This document shows, piece by piece, positions 18,119 to 24,395 of a stretch of DNA of 64,000 bases. Origin of the DNA: Fulvivirga lutea (GTDB lineage: Bacteria; Bacteroidota; Bacteroidia; Cytophagales; Cyclobacteriaceae); the NCBI RefSeq assembly GCF_017068455.1, contig NZ_CP070608.1, positions 1,841,488-1,905,487 of the forward strand, read 5' to 3'. The notes under the pieces were generated by a model. It searched no databases, was not told the origin of the DNA, and was given only the letters and a program-made list of their open reading frames with translations. Numbering within the stretch: position 1 is the first letter of the stretch; each line of letters starts with the position of its first letter. The position numbers and the translations under genes are program-made.

Positions 18119-18556
18119 TTGAAAAAAGAAATTATCGGAAGAAACGAAATAGTAGACTTGCCTGAGATGGAATTATTTCAACTTAGGGCAAAAGTAGATA
18201 CAGGTGCATATACGTCAGCCATTCATTATCACCATGCAGAAGTAATTAAGAAAGATGGTGAAGATGTACTGCATTTTACTTTGTTAGATCCATCGCATGA
18301 AGAGTATAACGATAAAAGCTTCTACTTTAAACAATTCAAAACTAAAAAGATCAAGAACTCATTCGGCCAGAGTGAGGAGCGTTATATCATTCAGGCTACC
18401 ATAAGAATATTTGATAAAGACATTCAAACAGAATTTTCACTTAGTGATCGTGGAAATTTAAAATTCCCATTATTGCTTGGTCGTAAGCTTTTAAATAAGC
18501 ATTTTATAGTAGACACATCAAAAAAGAATTTATCATTAAAATCCAACAAAAAATGA
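18119..18556 (+). CDS. RimB-like retropepsin-fold protease (ATP-dependent zinc protease family)
   Basis: The 145 residues have the aspartic-protease-like [10 protein letters not shown] motif (D27-T28-G29), which fits the family commonly labelled ATP-dependent zinc protease. The only start that keeps the conserved [12 protein letters not shown] lead is TTG at 18119; the first in-frame ATG would remove it. The gene overlaps the RimK-like ligase by 4 bp. In Pseudomonas the corresponding protein RimB removes glutamates that RimK adds to ribosomal protein S6; a similar antagonism is inferred here from neighbourhood and family only. Confidence 0.82.
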
Positions 18557-19467
18557 AAGTAGCAGTACTTTCCCGAAACGCGAATTTATATTCCACAAGA
18601 AGATTAGTAGAAGCTTGCGAAGAGCGGGGCCATGAGGCAGTAGTTGTAGATCATCTTCGATGTACGATTGTCATGGAAAAGAACAAACCCAGTATTATCT
18701 ATCATGGTCATACGTTGGATGATATTGATGCTATAATTCCCAGAATAGGTGCATCCGTAACGTTTTATGGCTCTGCTGTTGTGCGCCAGTTTGAAATGAT
18801 GAAGGTTTTTACGGCTGTAGAATCGCAGGCACTCATTAGATCTCGCGATAAACTGAGAAGTCTTCAAATACTTTCCAGGGCTGGTTTAGGATTACCTAAA
18901 ACGGTTTTCACGAACTATTCACGAGACACAGATTCGATTTTAAATGCTGTGGGCGGAGCTCCGGTAATCATTAAACTATTGGAAGGCACGCAAGGCCTTG
19001 GTGTAGTATTGGCTGATAATCGAAAATCGGCAGCCTCAGTTATAGAGGCTTTTCATGGTTTAAAAGCACGTGTAATAGTTCAGGAATTTGTTAAAGAAGC
19101 AGGCGGTGCAGATATCAGAGCATTTGTAGTTGATGGAAAGGTAGTAGGAGCCATGAAGCGACAAGCGAAAGAAGGTGAATTTCGCTCTAACTTGCACAGA
19201 GGAGGTACATCTGCTATTATTAAACTTTCTCGTTCAGAAAAAGCTGCTGCAATCAATGCCGCAAAGAAAATGGGACTAGGAGTTGCTGGTGTGGATATGC
19301 TTCAATCAAAAAGAGGGCCTTTGATTTTGGAAGTAAATTCTTCTCCAGGACTAGAGGGTATTGAAAAAGCTACGAATATTGATATAGCTGGTAAGATTGT
19401 TGAATTTCTGGAGCATAATGTCGCCAAACCTAAAAAGAGGATTCAAAAGGATAAAATTAACGCCTGA
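18553..19467 (+). CDS. rimK: RimK-family ATP-grasp alpha-L-glutamate ligase
   Basis: The 304 residues are a complete RimK: N-terminal pre-ATP-grasp domain ([32 protein letters not shown]), ATP-grasp core with [14 protein letters not shown] and [18 protein letters not shown], and metal-binding [13 protein letters not shown]. RimK adds glutamates to the ribosomal protein S6 C-terminus or makes poly-glutamate in Gammaproteobacteria; the target here is not shown. A basic tail ([10 protein letters not shown]) ends the protein. It is coupled by 4 bp to the retropepsin-like gene and followed after 3 bp by the aspartoacylase-like gene. Confidence 0.92.
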
Positions 19468-19470
19468 TAT

Positions 19471-20412
19471 ATGAAGCAAATGGTGATTGACGGGCATAAG
19501 ATAGAACCCGGACAGAATTTACAGATTAATGCATTAATTGCCAGATTGCCGACCAGAACACCTATCAACATTCCGGTTTTTGTATCCAGAGCTAAATTGG
19601 ATGGACCTACCTTGTTGATCATGGCAGGAGTACATGGTGATGAGACGAACGGTGTAGAAATATTAAGAAGGCTAATTGCCTCTAAATCGTACATACCAAA
19701 AAAAGGATCGGTGATAGCCATTCCAGTCTTTAATGTTTATGGCTTTATTAATCATGAACGCGGGTTGCCTGACGGTAAGGATTTAAACAGGTCTTTCCCA
19801 GGATCAAAAACTGGTTCATTAGCCAGTAGAGTAGCTAATTTCTTTACAAGTGAGATTTTACCACAGATTGATTACGGCCTCGATTTTCATACAGGGGGTG
19901 CCAGTCATAACAACTATCCGCAACTCAGAAGTGCCCTTGAATTGCCACAGGAAATGGAGCTGGCACAAGCCTTTGCACCACCATTAATTATAAAATCCCC
20001 GTTCAGAGATAAATCGTTGCGAAAAACTGCTGCCAAATCTGGTGTGCCTGTTTTGGTGTTTGAAGGTGGAGAGACATTGAGAATGCGTAAACAGGCTATT
20101 GATGCAGGCGTTGAGGGTGCATTGCGTGTTATGAAATATTTGGGAATGCGGGATGATGCACCAGAACCAGATAAAGAAACGATTTACATTAAAGAATCGA
20201 CCTGGGTAAGAGCCAAGTATGCGGGGCTTCATCATAGTTACGTGCGTAATGGTAGTAAAGTAGAGAAAAATCAATTATTGGGTGTAATTACTGATCCGTA
20301 TGGTCAGTTCGAGAAAAAGATAAAATCACCTATGGATGGCGTTGTAATAGGTATTAACAACTATCCGGTAGTGAATATGGGCGATGCGCTCATGCATATT
20401 GGAATGAAATAA
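19471..20412 (+). CDS. Succinylglutamate desuccinylase / aspartoacylase-family zinc hydrolase (M14-like)
   Basis: The 313 residues show the zinc-carboxypeptidase-like site: GVHGDETNG (H55, E58), DLNRSFPG (104-111), LDFHTGG (H140) and VFEGGE (E198). The C-terminal about 80 residues form a biotinyl/lipoyl-like beta module (GVITDPYGQFEKKIKSPMDGVV). Relatives cleave N-acyl amino acids. Being third in a run with RimB-like and RimK-like genes suggests a substrate related to glutamylated peptides, which is an inference. The next gene begins 21 bp downstream. Confidence 0.87.
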   Translation: MKQMVIDGHKIEPGQNLQINALIARLPTRTPINIPVFVSRAKLDGPTLLIMAGVHGDETNGVEILRRLIASKSYIPKKGSVIAIPVFNVYGFINHERGLPDGKDLNRSFPGSKTGSLASRVANFFTSEILPQIDYGLDFHTGGASHNNYPQLRSALELPQEMELAQAFAPPLIIKSPFRDKSLRKTAAKSGVPVLVFEGGETLRMRKQAIDAGVEGALRVMKYLGMRDDAPEPDKETIYIKESTWVRAKYAGLHHSYVRNGSKVEKNQLLGVITDPYGQFEKKIKSPMDGVVIGINNYPVVNMGDALMHIGMK

Positions 20413-20433: not shown

Positions 20434-23421
20434 ATGACCAATAAAAACAATGAACATTTCGATATAATAAAAAAGGTAATTCATTCCACCTTTTTAACAC
20501 CATTCAATCATAGGCTTGACGATCACAAGGAGTTCCTAAAGAAGGCGTATGAGCTAATAATAAACTTAAACTCGTCAGACCTTGATAAGCCTGAAGCCTT
20601 AAAACAAGCATTCGTTTACAAGGCAAATTTATTAGAAGCCACTGAACACTTATTAAAAGCCGGTCTTAATGATTATGAGACGGAGTTTAAGTTATTCGAG
20701 AAGGAGTTTAAGGTGCACTTAAAGTCTCAGGTTAAAACAAAAAAGTTAGTTCAAAAGAAAGAACGATTTGATATTCAGTCAGATGACAGCCTGTTCATTA
20801 AAATTCTTAAACCAGCTAAAAAAGCAGTTTATTTAATTTCAAAATGGCCCGAAAAAGTGGCTAATGTTATTCGAAAATTAAGGGGTAAAGACCAGGTACC
20901 TCTAAAGTCTTGGTATCATAAAGTTAATTTCAGGGATCTCACCAATTACTACTTAAAAGAAAAGTTTCTTGAAGATTTAAAACCGGCAATTGATTTATAC
21001 TATCAGGAAGTAACGGCTACAGCATTAACGCTATGGTATTATGATGATCAAATTGATAAAAGGTTATCAAAGAACTTTGGCTTAGAACAGGAAGATGAGC
21101 TAAAAAAAGTAACTCAAGCGGAAGTTGACGAGAATTTAAAAAAGTTAGATGCTGCCAAAGAGCGAATTAAAGCAGTGGTTGAAAAAAGTTTTAAAGAAAG
21201 CTGCGCATCGTTCAGTTTTAATTTAGAAAGAGCTGGCACTATTGAGCGCTCAAACCGAAGTTTTTCACAACGAAAAAGTAAAAAGCTTCATAAGAAGATT
21301 ACAAATAACTTCAAGAGGGTTAATACCAGATGGAATAACACACTCCTTGTTCTTAACGATGACTGGCAAATTGACCTTGAATTATATGACATCATATACG
21401 AGTCTCTATATAAAATTATAGAGATAAAGAGCTCAATAAACGACAAGCTAAATACTATTTATGATTACAAGTTCATTTCTGTAAAACAGCATTTGGAGGG
21501 GTGGAAGAGTAAATTATCAAAAGAGCCGGACCAGTCATTTAAGAAGTTAATAGTAAGTGAACTACCAGCTATTAATAAACAGCTGAGCAAATTAATAGAT
21601 GATACAAGGGATCATATTATCAATCAGGACTTTCTTGAAACTATTGATTCGTTGGAACAACTAACGATTGAATCTCTTGAAAAAATTAGCCAAAGAAGAG
21701 CGATTACAAGAGGAGTTGATTTCAACGCACCAGTTAAAGGCGCACAGATTAACTACATATCTCCTTCGGAGTTGATTCAATTTGAAACGGCACCGCAGTT
21801 TTTTAAGGTTACGGAAGCAATTAAAGTTGCAACGAATGAAAACCTATCAAAGGCAGAAGCAACATTGCTTCAGATGGAACAAATCCTCTCATTTAATTTA
21901 GAAACTGCTGCATCTAAAGCGGATGACAGCAAGAATTTAGATGAAGCAAAATCCATAGCATTGGAAGGTATGGATAGAACCATCGCTCAGCTAGACAATG
22001 CAAAGGAGCAGCTTGATGAGATTGAAGCTAATGTTTCTAATGAACTCAATGAAGGTTTGATTACCTACTGCAAGAACCTAATAAAATTTACCAACAATGA
22101 AAATATTCTTGAATTAAGAGTAAGAATAGCAAAAGGTAAGGCCATAGACCGTGGCAGAAAGCTCAAGGAGAATGTTATTAATACCGTCAAAAACTTCGTG
22201 CCACTTGCCATTAGATTCATCAAAGCTAGTTATAAAAAGTACAATGAGCTTTTTAGACAAAAGTTAAAACGACTTGGTATTCAAGGAGTTAAATCTACAG
22301 TGTCAACTGAAATGGCAGATTTCTTAGCTGAAACAGAAACAGTAATTGAGTCTTTGCCAGTAGTTTACCAGCGTTTATTTAGAGCACGCCCATTAGAAGA
22401 TGATAAGTTTTTTGAGGGGCGAAGGGAAGAGCATAAGCAGTTAAAGAATGCTTATTCAAATTGGAATGCTGGACGATTTGCAGCAACAGTTGTTGTTGGT
22501 GAGAAAGGCTCAGGATTAACTACATTATTAAATTTATTTCTATTTAATTTAAAAGAAGATAAAGAGATTATAAGGCTCAGACCTGAGCAAAATATTAGTA
22601 GAGAAGAGGACCTACTTCTTTATTTTAACGAGGCAATTGGAGGTAAAAATCGGCTAGAGCTCAATGCCTTAGTTACATATTTGAATACTGGTAAAAAGAA
22701 GATCGTTATTCTCGAAAATGTTCAGAACCTCTACGAAAAAAAAATCGGAGGATTTGTGGTTGTAAAGGTACTTGCAGAGTTAATCTCACTTACTCATAGA
22801 AATACATTTTGGATAACAGGGTGTACCCAATATGCATTCAAGTATCTGGATAAGACAATTAATTTTTCCGAAAATTTCAGTTATAAGGTTGAGATGGAAG
22901 AATTGTCTGCTGATGATATTATCAATATTATAGAACGCAGACATAAAGTGAGTGGCTACAAGTTAGTTTACGAAGCAGGGTCTGACGAGGCAAATAATAA
23001 GCGGTTTGCCAATATGGAGTACGAAGAACAGCAGGCCTATTTAAAGAAAAATTACTTCAACGAGTTAAATAAGCTAACTAAGAGCAATATTAGCATCGCT
23101 CTCGTCTATTGGCTTAGGTCAACCAATATTGGTGAAGGAAACACAATTCGAATTAAATCTATTGGTAATATTGACTATTCCTTTATCAATGGGCTATCAA
23201 ATCAAAAGCTGGAGGTACTCACCATTTTGTTATTGCATGATGGCCTTACTGAAGAACATGTGGCTGATATTACCAATCAGAGTATACAAAAGGCAAGAGG
23301 TATATTACACACACTGTTGGAAGATGGAGTGATAATAAGGCCGGAACTAACCTATTTTATCAATCCTCTTTTATACAGACAAACAGTATCATTATTGAAG
23401 GCTAAAAACATAATCCATTGA
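20434..23421 (+). CDS. Large helical protein with degenerate P-loop ATPase domain and winged helix, coupled to MscS
   Basis: I do not recognise a named family for this 995-residue protein. Residues 1 to about 640 are charged and helix-rich with coiled-coil stretches and no clear membrane segment. From about 655 (FFEGRREEHKQL) a P-loop ATPase domain of AAA/STAND appearance begins. Its Walker A reads GEKGSGLTT (689-697), so the usual Lys is L695. The Walker B-like strand is IVILENVQ (757-764), with Glu-Asn instead of Asp-Glu. TFWITGCTQ (791-799) resembles a sensor-1 strand. Residues about 920-970 look like a winged helix (EEHVADITNQSIQKARGILHTLLEDGVI). Its TGA overlaps the TTG start of the MscS gene by 4 bp, which argues for a joint function. 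Confidence 0.75.
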   Translation: MTNKNNEHFDIIKKVIHSTFLTPFNHRLDDHKEFLKKAYELIINLNSSDLDKPEALKQAFVYKANLLEATEHLLKAGLNDYETEFKLFEKEFKVHLKSQVKTKKLVQKKERFDIQSDDSLFIKILKPAKKAVYLISKWPEKVANVIRKLRGKDQVPLKSWYHKVNFRDLTNYYLKEKFLEDLKPAIDLYYQEVTATALTLWYYDDQIDKRLSKNFGLEQEDELKKVTQAEVDENLKKLDAAKERIKAVVEKSFKESCASFSFNLERAGTIERSNRSFSQRKSKKLHKKITNNFKRVNTRWNNTLLVLNDDWQIDLELYDIIYESLYKIIEIKSSINDKLNTIYDYKFISVKQHLEGWKSKLSKEPDQSFKKLIVSELPAINKQLSKLIDDTRDHIINQDFLETIDSLEQLTIESLEKISQRRAITRGVDFNAPVKGAQINYISPSELIQFETAPQFFKVTEAIKVATNENLSKAEATLLQMEQILSFNLETAASKADDSKNLDEAKSIALEGMDRTIAQLDNAKEQLDEIEANVSNELNEGLITYCKNLIKFTNNENILELRVRIAKGKAIDRGRKLKENVINTVKNFVPLAIRFIKASYKKYNELFRQKLKRLGIQGVKSTVSTEMADFLAETETVIESLPVVYQRLFRARPLEDDKFFEGRREEHKQLKNAYSNWNAGRFAATVVVGEKGSGLTTLLNLFLFNLKEDKEIIRLRPEQNISREEDLLLYFNEAIGGKNRLELNALVTYLNTGKKKIVILENVQNLYEKKIGGFVVVKVLAELISLTHRNTFWITGCTQYAFKYLDKTINFSENFSYKVEMEELSADDIINIIERRHKVSGYKLVYEAGSDEANNKRFANMEYEEQQAYLKKNYFNELNKLTKSNISIALVYWLRSTNIGEGNTIRIKSIGNIDYSFINGLSNQKLEVLTILLLHDGLTEEHVADITNQSIQKARGILHTLLEDGVIIRPELTYFINPLLYRQTVSLLKAKNIIH

Positions 23422-24395
23422 AAAAGTTGCTCACATTCGTTTTAGTCTTATTAACTCTATTTGGCTATTCTCAAAGTCCTGATTCTGTGACTATTGATAC
23501 AGTACAGAGTATTTCTCTAGTGGATACATTAGGCGCGAAAAACATTAGTCAGGATACATTAAAGAAGGATTCTGTGAGTGCAAAAACAGATTCTGAACAA
23601 AAAATACAAGTACCCCCAATACATGACTTAATATCAATTGGCAAGATTTTTTGGTCAATTGTATTTCTGGTAGTAGGATATTTTGTTCTACGTTTTCTCG
23701 GGACAGTGCTGGAAAAGTTTGCAGAAAAAAGCACAACCTACCGTATCACGATTAAGGGATTCATACCAATACTTAAAATTTTAGGTTGGGCATTTATCTT
23801 GTTTATCATAATTGCAGGGATATTTCAACCACCCATTAACGCTGTACTTACAGCCACGGCTTCTTTGGGTATTGCCATTGGTTTTGCAGCTCAGGATATT
23901 ATTAAAAATATTTTTGGAGGCATTATGATTTTGTTCGATCGACCTTTCCAAGTGGGCGACAAAATTGAAATAGGAAAGTTTTACGGTGAGGTAGTGGAAA
24001 TCGGTTTACGATCTACTCGAATTGTAACACCTGATGATTCTCTCGTAAGTGTTCCAAACTCTGAGGTAATGAACACATCTGTTTCAAATTCCAATGCTGG
24101 TGAACCGAATTGTCAGGTAGTGGCTGAAATATACCTTCCTATAACGGTTGATACCACTAAAGTCCGTCAAGTGGCAATTGAAGCAGCACAAGTATCGAAA
24201 TACATATACCTTAACAAGCCTATTGCAGTACTTTTTTTTAATGAAGTGAAAGAGCGCAGGTCTTATTTAAAAATGCGACTTAAGGCCTATGTGGCCGATA
24301 TTAGGTACGAGTTTGCCTTTAAAAGCGATATGACAGAATTGGTGATGAAAGAGTTGTTGAAATCTAAGCTTATTGACCCAGAGGATTTGAAGTAA
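23418..24395 (+). CDS. MscS-family mechanosensitive channel with cleavable signal peptide
   Basis: The 325 residues begin with a signal peptide (MKKLLTFVLVLLTLFGYSQ) and a Ser/Asp/Thr-rich exported linker to about 68. Two membrane helices (about 72-96 and 117-139) follow, then the MscS pore helix and beta domain: SLGIAIGFAAQDIIKN (149-164), FDRPFQVGDKIEIG, VEIGLRSTRI and VPNSEVMN. In known MscS proteins this pore releases osmolytes under tension. The start is TTG inside the TTGA overlap with the upstream ATPase gene; no closer ATG keeps the signal peptide. Gating by the partner ATPase is a hypothesis. Confidence 0.92.
   Translation: MKKLLTFVLVLLTLFGYSQSPDSVTIDTVQSISLVDTLGAKNISQDTLKKDSVSAKTDSEQKIQVPPIHDLISIGKIFWSIVFLVVGYFVLRFLGTVLEKFAEKSTTYRITIKGFIPILKILGWAFILFIIIAGIFQPPINAVLTATASLGIAIGFAAQDIIKNIFGGIMILFDRPFQVGDKIEIGKFYGEVVEIGLRSTRIVTPDDSLVSVPNSEVMNTSVSNSNAGEPNCQVVAEIYLPITVDTTKVRQVAIEAAQVSKYIYLNKPIAVLFFNEVKERRSYLKMRLKAYVADIRYEFAFKSDMTELVMKELLKSKLIDPEDLK

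Follow-up and report, generated by a model that had tools for sequence, protein, structure and literature searches.

A conserved gene pair of an AAA+-like P-loop protein and an MscS-family channel in Fulvivirga lutea and its relatives, with a suggested role in ion and osmotic homeostasis

The present analysis concerns two adjacent genes of Fulvivirga lutea, found in a stretch of 64,000 nucleotides of contig NZ_CP070608.1, hereafter the window, which is a piece of a one-contig 4.14-Mb genome. The first gene encodes an AAA+-like P-loop protein, called the ATPase below, and the second an MscS-family channel. An earlier note made from the letters of the DNA had described a 995-residue ATPase whose P-loop GEKGSGLTT carries Leu695 in the place of the Walker A Lys and whose Walker B-like strand ends in Glu-Asn, together with a 4-bp overlap between its stop codon and the TTG start of the MscS gene, and the open reading frames (ORFs) and the homologue alignment bore out all of these features as collected in Table 1.

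Table 1. Features of the ATPase-MscS locus, in window positions
Feature	Position	Strand	Basis
AAA+-like P-loop protein (ATPase), 995 residues, degenerate Walker A (Leu695)	20434..23421	+	ORF, Pfam, alignment, model
Elongated helical domain (predicted), residues 1-635	20434..22338	+	model pLDDT 92.7; PDB without significant match
P-loop GEKGSGLTT, residues 689-697	22498..22524	+	homologue alignment
Walker B-like strand, residues 756-762, ending Glu761-Asn762	22699..22719	+	homologue alignment
Winged-helix-like C-terminal segment (predicted), residues 916-995	23179..23418	+	model secondary structure; ORC/Cdc6 and RuvB matches
Overlap of ATPase stop and MscS start, TTGA, 4 bp	23418..23421	+	ORF coordinates
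MscS-family channel, 325 residues, TTG start	23418..24395	+	PF00924 E 1.6e-23
MscS pore helix region, residues 140-172	23835..23933	+	14/33 columns at least 90% identical, 77 sequences
MscS C-terminal cytoplasmic domain, residues 227-325, candidate docking surface	24096..24392	+	35/99 columns at least 90% identical
Upstream RimB-like (retropepsin-like), RimK and AstE/AspA-like genes, next to the ATPase but outside the core pair	18119..20412	+	

The ATPase departs from the standard motifs at both nucleotide sites, since GEKGSGLTT stands where the canonical Walker A reads GxxGxGK[ST], and KKIVILEN, with its final E761-N762, stands where Walker B should read hhhhDE. In Pfam only sub-threshold matches were obtained, the best being AAA_16 and AAA_22 (both E 1.1e-4), and the winged-helix families TrmB and ScpB also stayed below threshold; no NACHT, NB-ARC or nSTAND family came above threshold, and nSTAND was not listed even at E <= 1. 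NCBIfam gave one weak match far under its cut-off (Sta1, E 0.092), a sequence search of the PDB gave weak matches alone, mostly to helical proteins and generic P-loops, and hydropathy indicated no membrane helix (19-residue maximum 1.3, threshold 1.6).

The pairing of the two genes was followed in several samples. In a set of 98 genomes, consisting of the window's own genome and its relatives, a match to the ATPase is present in 28 genomes, 20 of which have a homologue of about 1000 residues, and the 19 homologues other than that of the window are 27-47% identical to it by tblastn. An MscS gene adjoins the ATPase in all 20 genomes, with 57-77% identity to the window's MscS in the 19 others, and the reverse search with the MscS subfamily (E <= 1e-40) recovered 20 of the 98 genomes, which are the same 20. 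Since 12 of them belong to the window's genus these co-occurrences are not independent; at the genus level the pair is found in 9 of 77 genera. A single-sequence scan of genome contigs with the ATPase returned no relative, while a query built from the alignment did retrieve relatives, the nearest being Flammeovirgaceae and Fulvivirga records. Among the best 80 of the 103 relatives so obtained (the named loci), MscS is adjacent in 78, downstream in 77 and upstream in one (L129, with a 4-bp overlap), and the downstream genes all lie within 200 bp, with an offset of zero or below in 34 and of at most 20 bp in 72; in one of these 77, L082, the MscS is a 98-residue fragment at a contig end. The two non-adjacent cases (L097, L119) are contigs which stop just after or inside the ATPase gene. 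The offsets of the MscS cluster serve as an internal control, for +1 holds 76 members and the seven others of the eight commonest hold 1 to 6 each.

The same behavior is seen at greater distance. In a phylum scan of 395 genomes, 84 had a match, and in the 71 loci with the stronger matches (E about 1e-42 or better) a same-strand MscS lies within 1000 bp of the module in 69, downstream in 56 and upstream in 13; in L222 and L224, the two misses, the contig edge falls at the start of the locus, which is the side of MscS in other loci with their genus codes. A second reading took in 81 loci that came from scans of the order and of the phylum, with seven present twice. The pair is retained with swapped gene order in L129 and L196-L199, and eight loci with minimal forms of the ATPase (open frames of 440-466 residues, one with an internal stop), which match about the last 420-460 model positions alone, still adjoin MscS. 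In L228 the contig stops 585 bp past the module, and no MscS match is found in that stretch. In the loci read, adjacency to MscS is near universal. Because homologues only 25-47% identical keep the arrangement, with a small overlap or gap between the genes and an unchanged frame of the P-loop, the pair is more than a chance neighbourhood, and because the adjacency is near universal, occurs in both gene orders and is accompanied by one-to-one co-occurrence in the 98 genomes, the suggestion that the ATPase is a dedicated partner of MscS is strongly supported. Apart from this, a 409-residue ATPase ORF with MscS was seen on a contig of a Sulfurimonas metagenome-assembled genome (MAG; L127), which reflects either horizontal transfer or a binning error.

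As for the channel, the beta-domain PF00924 is found in the window MscS at 83.0 bits against a cut-off of 20.2, beside a conserved pore helix region, and hydrophobic segments lie at about residues 68-99, 110-146 and 140-158; the N-terminus, judged by eye, resembles a signal peptide followed by a Ser/Thr/Asp-rich linker which is apparently exported, in line with the signal peptide, linker and pore named in the earlier note. NCBIfam scores of this protein are far under the cut-offs. Over 77 sequences (the window's and 76 partners), 27 of 54 columns of the beta-domain are at least 90% identical, to be compared with the values of the pore helix and the C-terminal domain in Table 1. What sets this MscS apart from known MscS, besides the apparently exported linker and the near-obligate ATPase neighbour, is the C-terminus: the usual C-terminal domain PF21082 came above cut-off in none of nine partner MscS, the window's included (where it is not listed at E <= 1), whereas it did so in all four non-partner MscS from the same loci, and the partner of L193 gave a weak match (15.7 against 21 bits). 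As this domain is unrecognised by PF21082 yet well conserved, it may be regarded as a candidate docking surface, perhaps for the ATPase. Two observations stand apart. At window 24294-24392, in the MscS C-terminus, Pfam lists a sub-threshold OSR1_C match (19.7 against 22.4 bits); OSR1 is linked to SLC12 control, and the match, which recurs weakly in one of seven partner MscS and in none of three others, was taken as chance. In L047 (6984-8023) two overlapping ORFs of different frame make up the MscS partner, which may be a real frameshift or an assembly error.

The nucleotide pocket shows a peculiar mixture of constancy and variation. All of 74 full-length homologues have E690 and G694, and Thr or Ser at 696, while position 695 takes 13 residue types, with Lys in only 14; position 761 is Glu in 70 and Asp in 4, and position 762 is Asp in 35, Asn in 31, Gly in 6 and others in 2. 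In the phylum set (n=71), the Walker A Lys position has Lys in 47, Arg in 13, other residues in 9 and a gap in 2. The Leu is not peculiar to the window strain, and it is no hallmark of the family either, the position being variable in both sets. A quick tree of 84 rows needs at least six steps between Lys and other residues and does not show their direction. In a distant clade of ten proteins, eight of which are fused to an SLC12-like transporter (of the other two, L040 is cut by a contig end and L039 has no transporter), the Walker A Lys is kept in all ten and the first Walker B acid is replaced by Asn or His in nine. At the position which we take by motif to be sensor 2, 53 of the 60 proteins that lack the Lys have Ser, and of the 14 that carry it 5 have Arg or Lys. 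Lys691 was considered as a stand-in for the lost Lys695, and it is no strict substitute because in 4 of the 60 Lys-less homologues that position is Ala (3) or Leu (1), and so neither Lys nor Arg. Altogether the pocket shape and the Mg-side residues appear to be retained, with different catalytic residues apparently lost in different lineages. In the window clade, where the Lys is lost and the other P-loop and Mg-site residues are kept, the protein would probably serve less as an efficient ATPase than as a switch or scaffold which binds nucleotide and hydrolyses it weakly or not at all.

An AlphaFold model of the full ATPase built with 74 sequences has a mean predicted local distance difference test score (pLDDT) of 87.4 and a predicted template modelling score (pTM) of 0.63, and its C-terminal part, with domains named from secondary structure and Foldseek, comprises a P-loop alpha/beta domain, a helical lid and a winged-helix-like segment, as expected of an AAA+ fold; a C-terminal winged helix after a helix-rich N-terminus, already read from the sequence, is thus present as a prediction. 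Residues 1-635 modelled alone (m3f6d6c985e25) reach pLDDT 92.7 and pTM 0.82 and are almost wholly helix, with one helix of 85 residues, and Foldseek against the PDB found nothing for this part at E <= 0.001 (best E 0.035). For the full ATPase Foldseek gave 148 matches at E <= 0.001, and in the best 50 of the 148, on which these details rest, the C-terminal part matches the AAA+ proteins ORC/Cdc6, RuvB and TnsC/MuB as well as CED-4, at E 1.3e-7 to 9e-5. With the initiator-type AAA+ proteins the ATPase therefore shares the predicted P-loop domain, lid and winged helix, and it differs from them in having no Walker A Lys, Glu-Asn in Walker B, mostly Ser for the putative sensor-2 Arg, a long helical N-terminus of its own and a channel as genetic partner. 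With the STAND NTPases (nSTAND1/3, AAA_16, AAA_22) it shares the sub-threshold AAA_16 and AAA_22 matches, and its relatives those to nSTAND, whereas the window protein ends at the winged-helix segment with no C-terminal repeat array in the model, and its partner is again a channel.

Beyond the pair itself, the module is found attached to transporters. In distant relatives of about 1700 residues the module is preceded by an APC-type transporter, for which the three proteins tested match PF00324 at E 1.8e-47 to 1.5e-49, and in the fusion of L203 the SLC12 family PF03522 is also above cut-off; when gene families were matched across 188 loci, some places being present twice, the transporter part of L203 found 20 loci. 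After the SLC12-fused genes of L032, L035 and L037 follow short MscS-like membrane proteins, and L031, L033, L034, L036, L038 and L040 have instead proteins of about 97-123 residues, which match the C-terminal domain of the MscS-like proteins of that clade (hhalign probability 94 with E 1.4e-7, and 95.5 in a further comparison). In relatives of about 1500 residues, at the six loci L185-L190, the module stands behind a Na+/H+ exchanger, recognized by PF00999 in L186 (E 3.7e-21) and by tblastn in the other five; the L186 fusion aligns to the module over nearly its full length (model positions 10-1005). The order here is a 414-residue protein (without a Pfam match in L186, the one tested), the exchanger fusion, MscS, TrkH and TrkA, an apparent ion-transport operon. 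Unfused neighbours are of the same kind: at L044 (the same place as L070), L074 and L078, TrkA, TrkH and an exchanger precede the 1000-residue ATPase, which MscS, RimB and RimK follow; L074, L126 and L128 have upstream an SLC12-like gene which is not fused, with 31-33% identity to the transporter of L203; CorA is matched in 19 of the 188 loci, and among the 80 named loci there are 11 in which it comes after one or more MscS genes of the same strand, L094 being a twelfth by later matching. An osmotic or ionic role is supported by these fusions and by the Trk and CorA genes that adjoin the smaller part of the loci, and the exchanger and SLC12 fusions taken with the Trk, CorA and MscS-like neighbours suggest that the job of the module is ion and osmotic, that is cell-volume, homeostasis. 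Two further observations may be recorded, that a Na+/H+ exchanger gene lies near several of the SLC12-like fusions L031-L038, L203 and L204, and that about 13 kb of L126, a Calditrichaeota MAG locus, contain the ATPase, two MscS and CorA together with matches to TrkH and to an SLC12-like transporter.

The trio directly upstream of the ATPase in the window also recurs. RimB-like, RimK and AspA-like genes are found together upstream in 8 of the 80 named loci, with RimB and RimK after MscS in 3, and the trio also adjoins the SLC12-fused form of L033. In the window's genus, the AspA-like gene is directly upstream in 10 of 12 loci, one of the others being without it and one being cut by a contig end.

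With these results, our favoured reading, to which we give a probability of about 0.55, is that MscS and a dedicated cytosolic AAA+-type regulator form one functional unit in ion and osmotic homeostasis, the ATPase being most likely a nucleotide-responsive regulator of ion flux through MscS. The regulator would consist of an elongated helical N-terminus followed, at the C-terminus, by an AAA+ core that includes the lid and the winged helix, and it would dock on the cytoplasmic side of MscS, perhaps on the unusual conserved C-terminal domain; a change of nucleotide or ionic state would then cause a conformational change by which ion flux is permitted or restricted, or the channel is assembled. 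The pairing, the fusions, the pattern of motifs and the prediction of the fold are direct results, from which we infer that the two proteins touch, that nucleotide is bound and that the channel is gated. Several observations weigh against this reading. Most loci have no Trk, exchanger or CorA neighbour, and among the window genes beside the pair identified with Pfam there is none of them. The SLC12-fused forms L230-L232 have their MscS-like gene 110-791 bp away and L233 has none detected, and of two remote 800-residue relatives L236 has no detected MscS-like gene, L237 having one (E 3e-6). The C-terminal domain of the window-type MscS compares marginally with the MscS-like partners of the fused forms (hhalign probability 1.7, E 0.029) and fails with their small soluble partners (probability 0.1), by which the idea that the latter are this very domain is ruled out, so that a single common docking domain is not established. 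The Foldseek matches to AAA+ proteins are modest, with template modelling scores of 0.31-0.57 (by target length, top 31) and large root-mean-square deviations. Finally, as many relatives retain the Lys, a loss of catalysis is not general.

Among the other explanations the best surviving, though an unlikely one, is that the ATPase is an AAA+ chaperone for assembly or quality control of MscS and related transporters and takes no part in gating from moment to moment. Remodelling of complexes is common among AAA+ proteins, and the strict pairing suits a client relation, but a power-stroke remodeller is disfavoured by the erosion of Walker A, or by that of the first acid of Walker B in the clade of distant, mostly SLC12-fused forms, and covalent fusion to transporters fits a permanent regulator better. 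It is less probable still that the pair is an anti-phage or conflict system, where a STAND-like sensor ATPase opens the MscS pore as a suicidal effector. Such a system would explain the sensor-like architecture beside a pore, the fast evolution of the ATPase (25-47% identity to the window protein), the weak nSTAND matches of its relatives and the presence of CED-4 among the fold matches (E 6.7e-5); against this, PADLOC gave no family at E <= 1 for either protein, the AspA-like gene kept upstream in the genus resembles vertical inheritance beside metabolic genes, and the exchanger and cotransporter fusions with the Trk and CorA neighbours make a context unlike a defence island, and this housekeeping context with the lack of a PADLOC match argues against defence. 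An equally improbable role is that of a DNA-binding transcription or replication factor of the AAA+/winged-helix kind co-transcribed with MscS for expression reasons alone, since for all its best fold matches to the DNA-bound ORC/Cdc6, RuvB and TnsC and its sub-threshold TrmB and ScpB matches, the module also occurs in one chain with membrane transporters and MscS is retained even where the gene order is inverted.

The proposed regulator of MscS has analogues, though of other descent. In the RCK/KTN regulators (TrkA/KtrA, KefC) a cytosolic nucleotide-binding protein controls the channel or transporter encoded beside it. Their fold is a Rossmann fold binding NAD or ADP and unrelated to AAA+, so that what they share with the ATPase is the linking of a nucleotide-site protein to an ion channel; the gene of TrkA, one of these regulators, lies next to those of the exchanger-fused forms of the module. 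In eukaryotes, the WNK-SPAK/OSR1-NKCC/KCC system ties a cytosolic nucleotide-using regulator to SLC12 cotransporters and cell volume, but it is a kinase cascade and no homology to the ATPase-MscS pair was seen. The earlier note recognised no described system with this pair, and in agreement a search of 5.39 million open-access papers, outside of which stand most subscription journals and preprints, found no description of one, the papers among the matches listed dealing by title with other matters or with the SLC12 transporters of mammals. The passage on a mechanosensitive channel in PMC11090510 concerns unrelated islands, and a term search of PMC7159879 gave 0 occurrences of "MscS" and "mechanosensitive".

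Taken together, we regard the pair with its transporter fusions as a new kind of system, whose component domains are of known kinds. More tentatively, and at somewhat less than even odds, it may represent an undescribed form of cell-volume control, in which AAA+-type switches, paired or fused, physically link MscS with K+, Na+/H+ and cation-chloride transport, and in which the pockets of several lineages, having lost the catalytic Lys or the first Walker B acid, would read nucleotide without burning ATP. The variable Lys in an otherwise conserved P-loop offers a natural experiment on the purpose of that residue. Textbooks present MscS as a passive safety valve which membrane tension opens; if our reading is true, many bacteria actively control MscS through a widespread and near-obligate cytosolic ATPase partner, and the exchanger and cotransporter fusions would give bacteria a modular volume-control device for which there is no counterpart among the papers listed by the searches.

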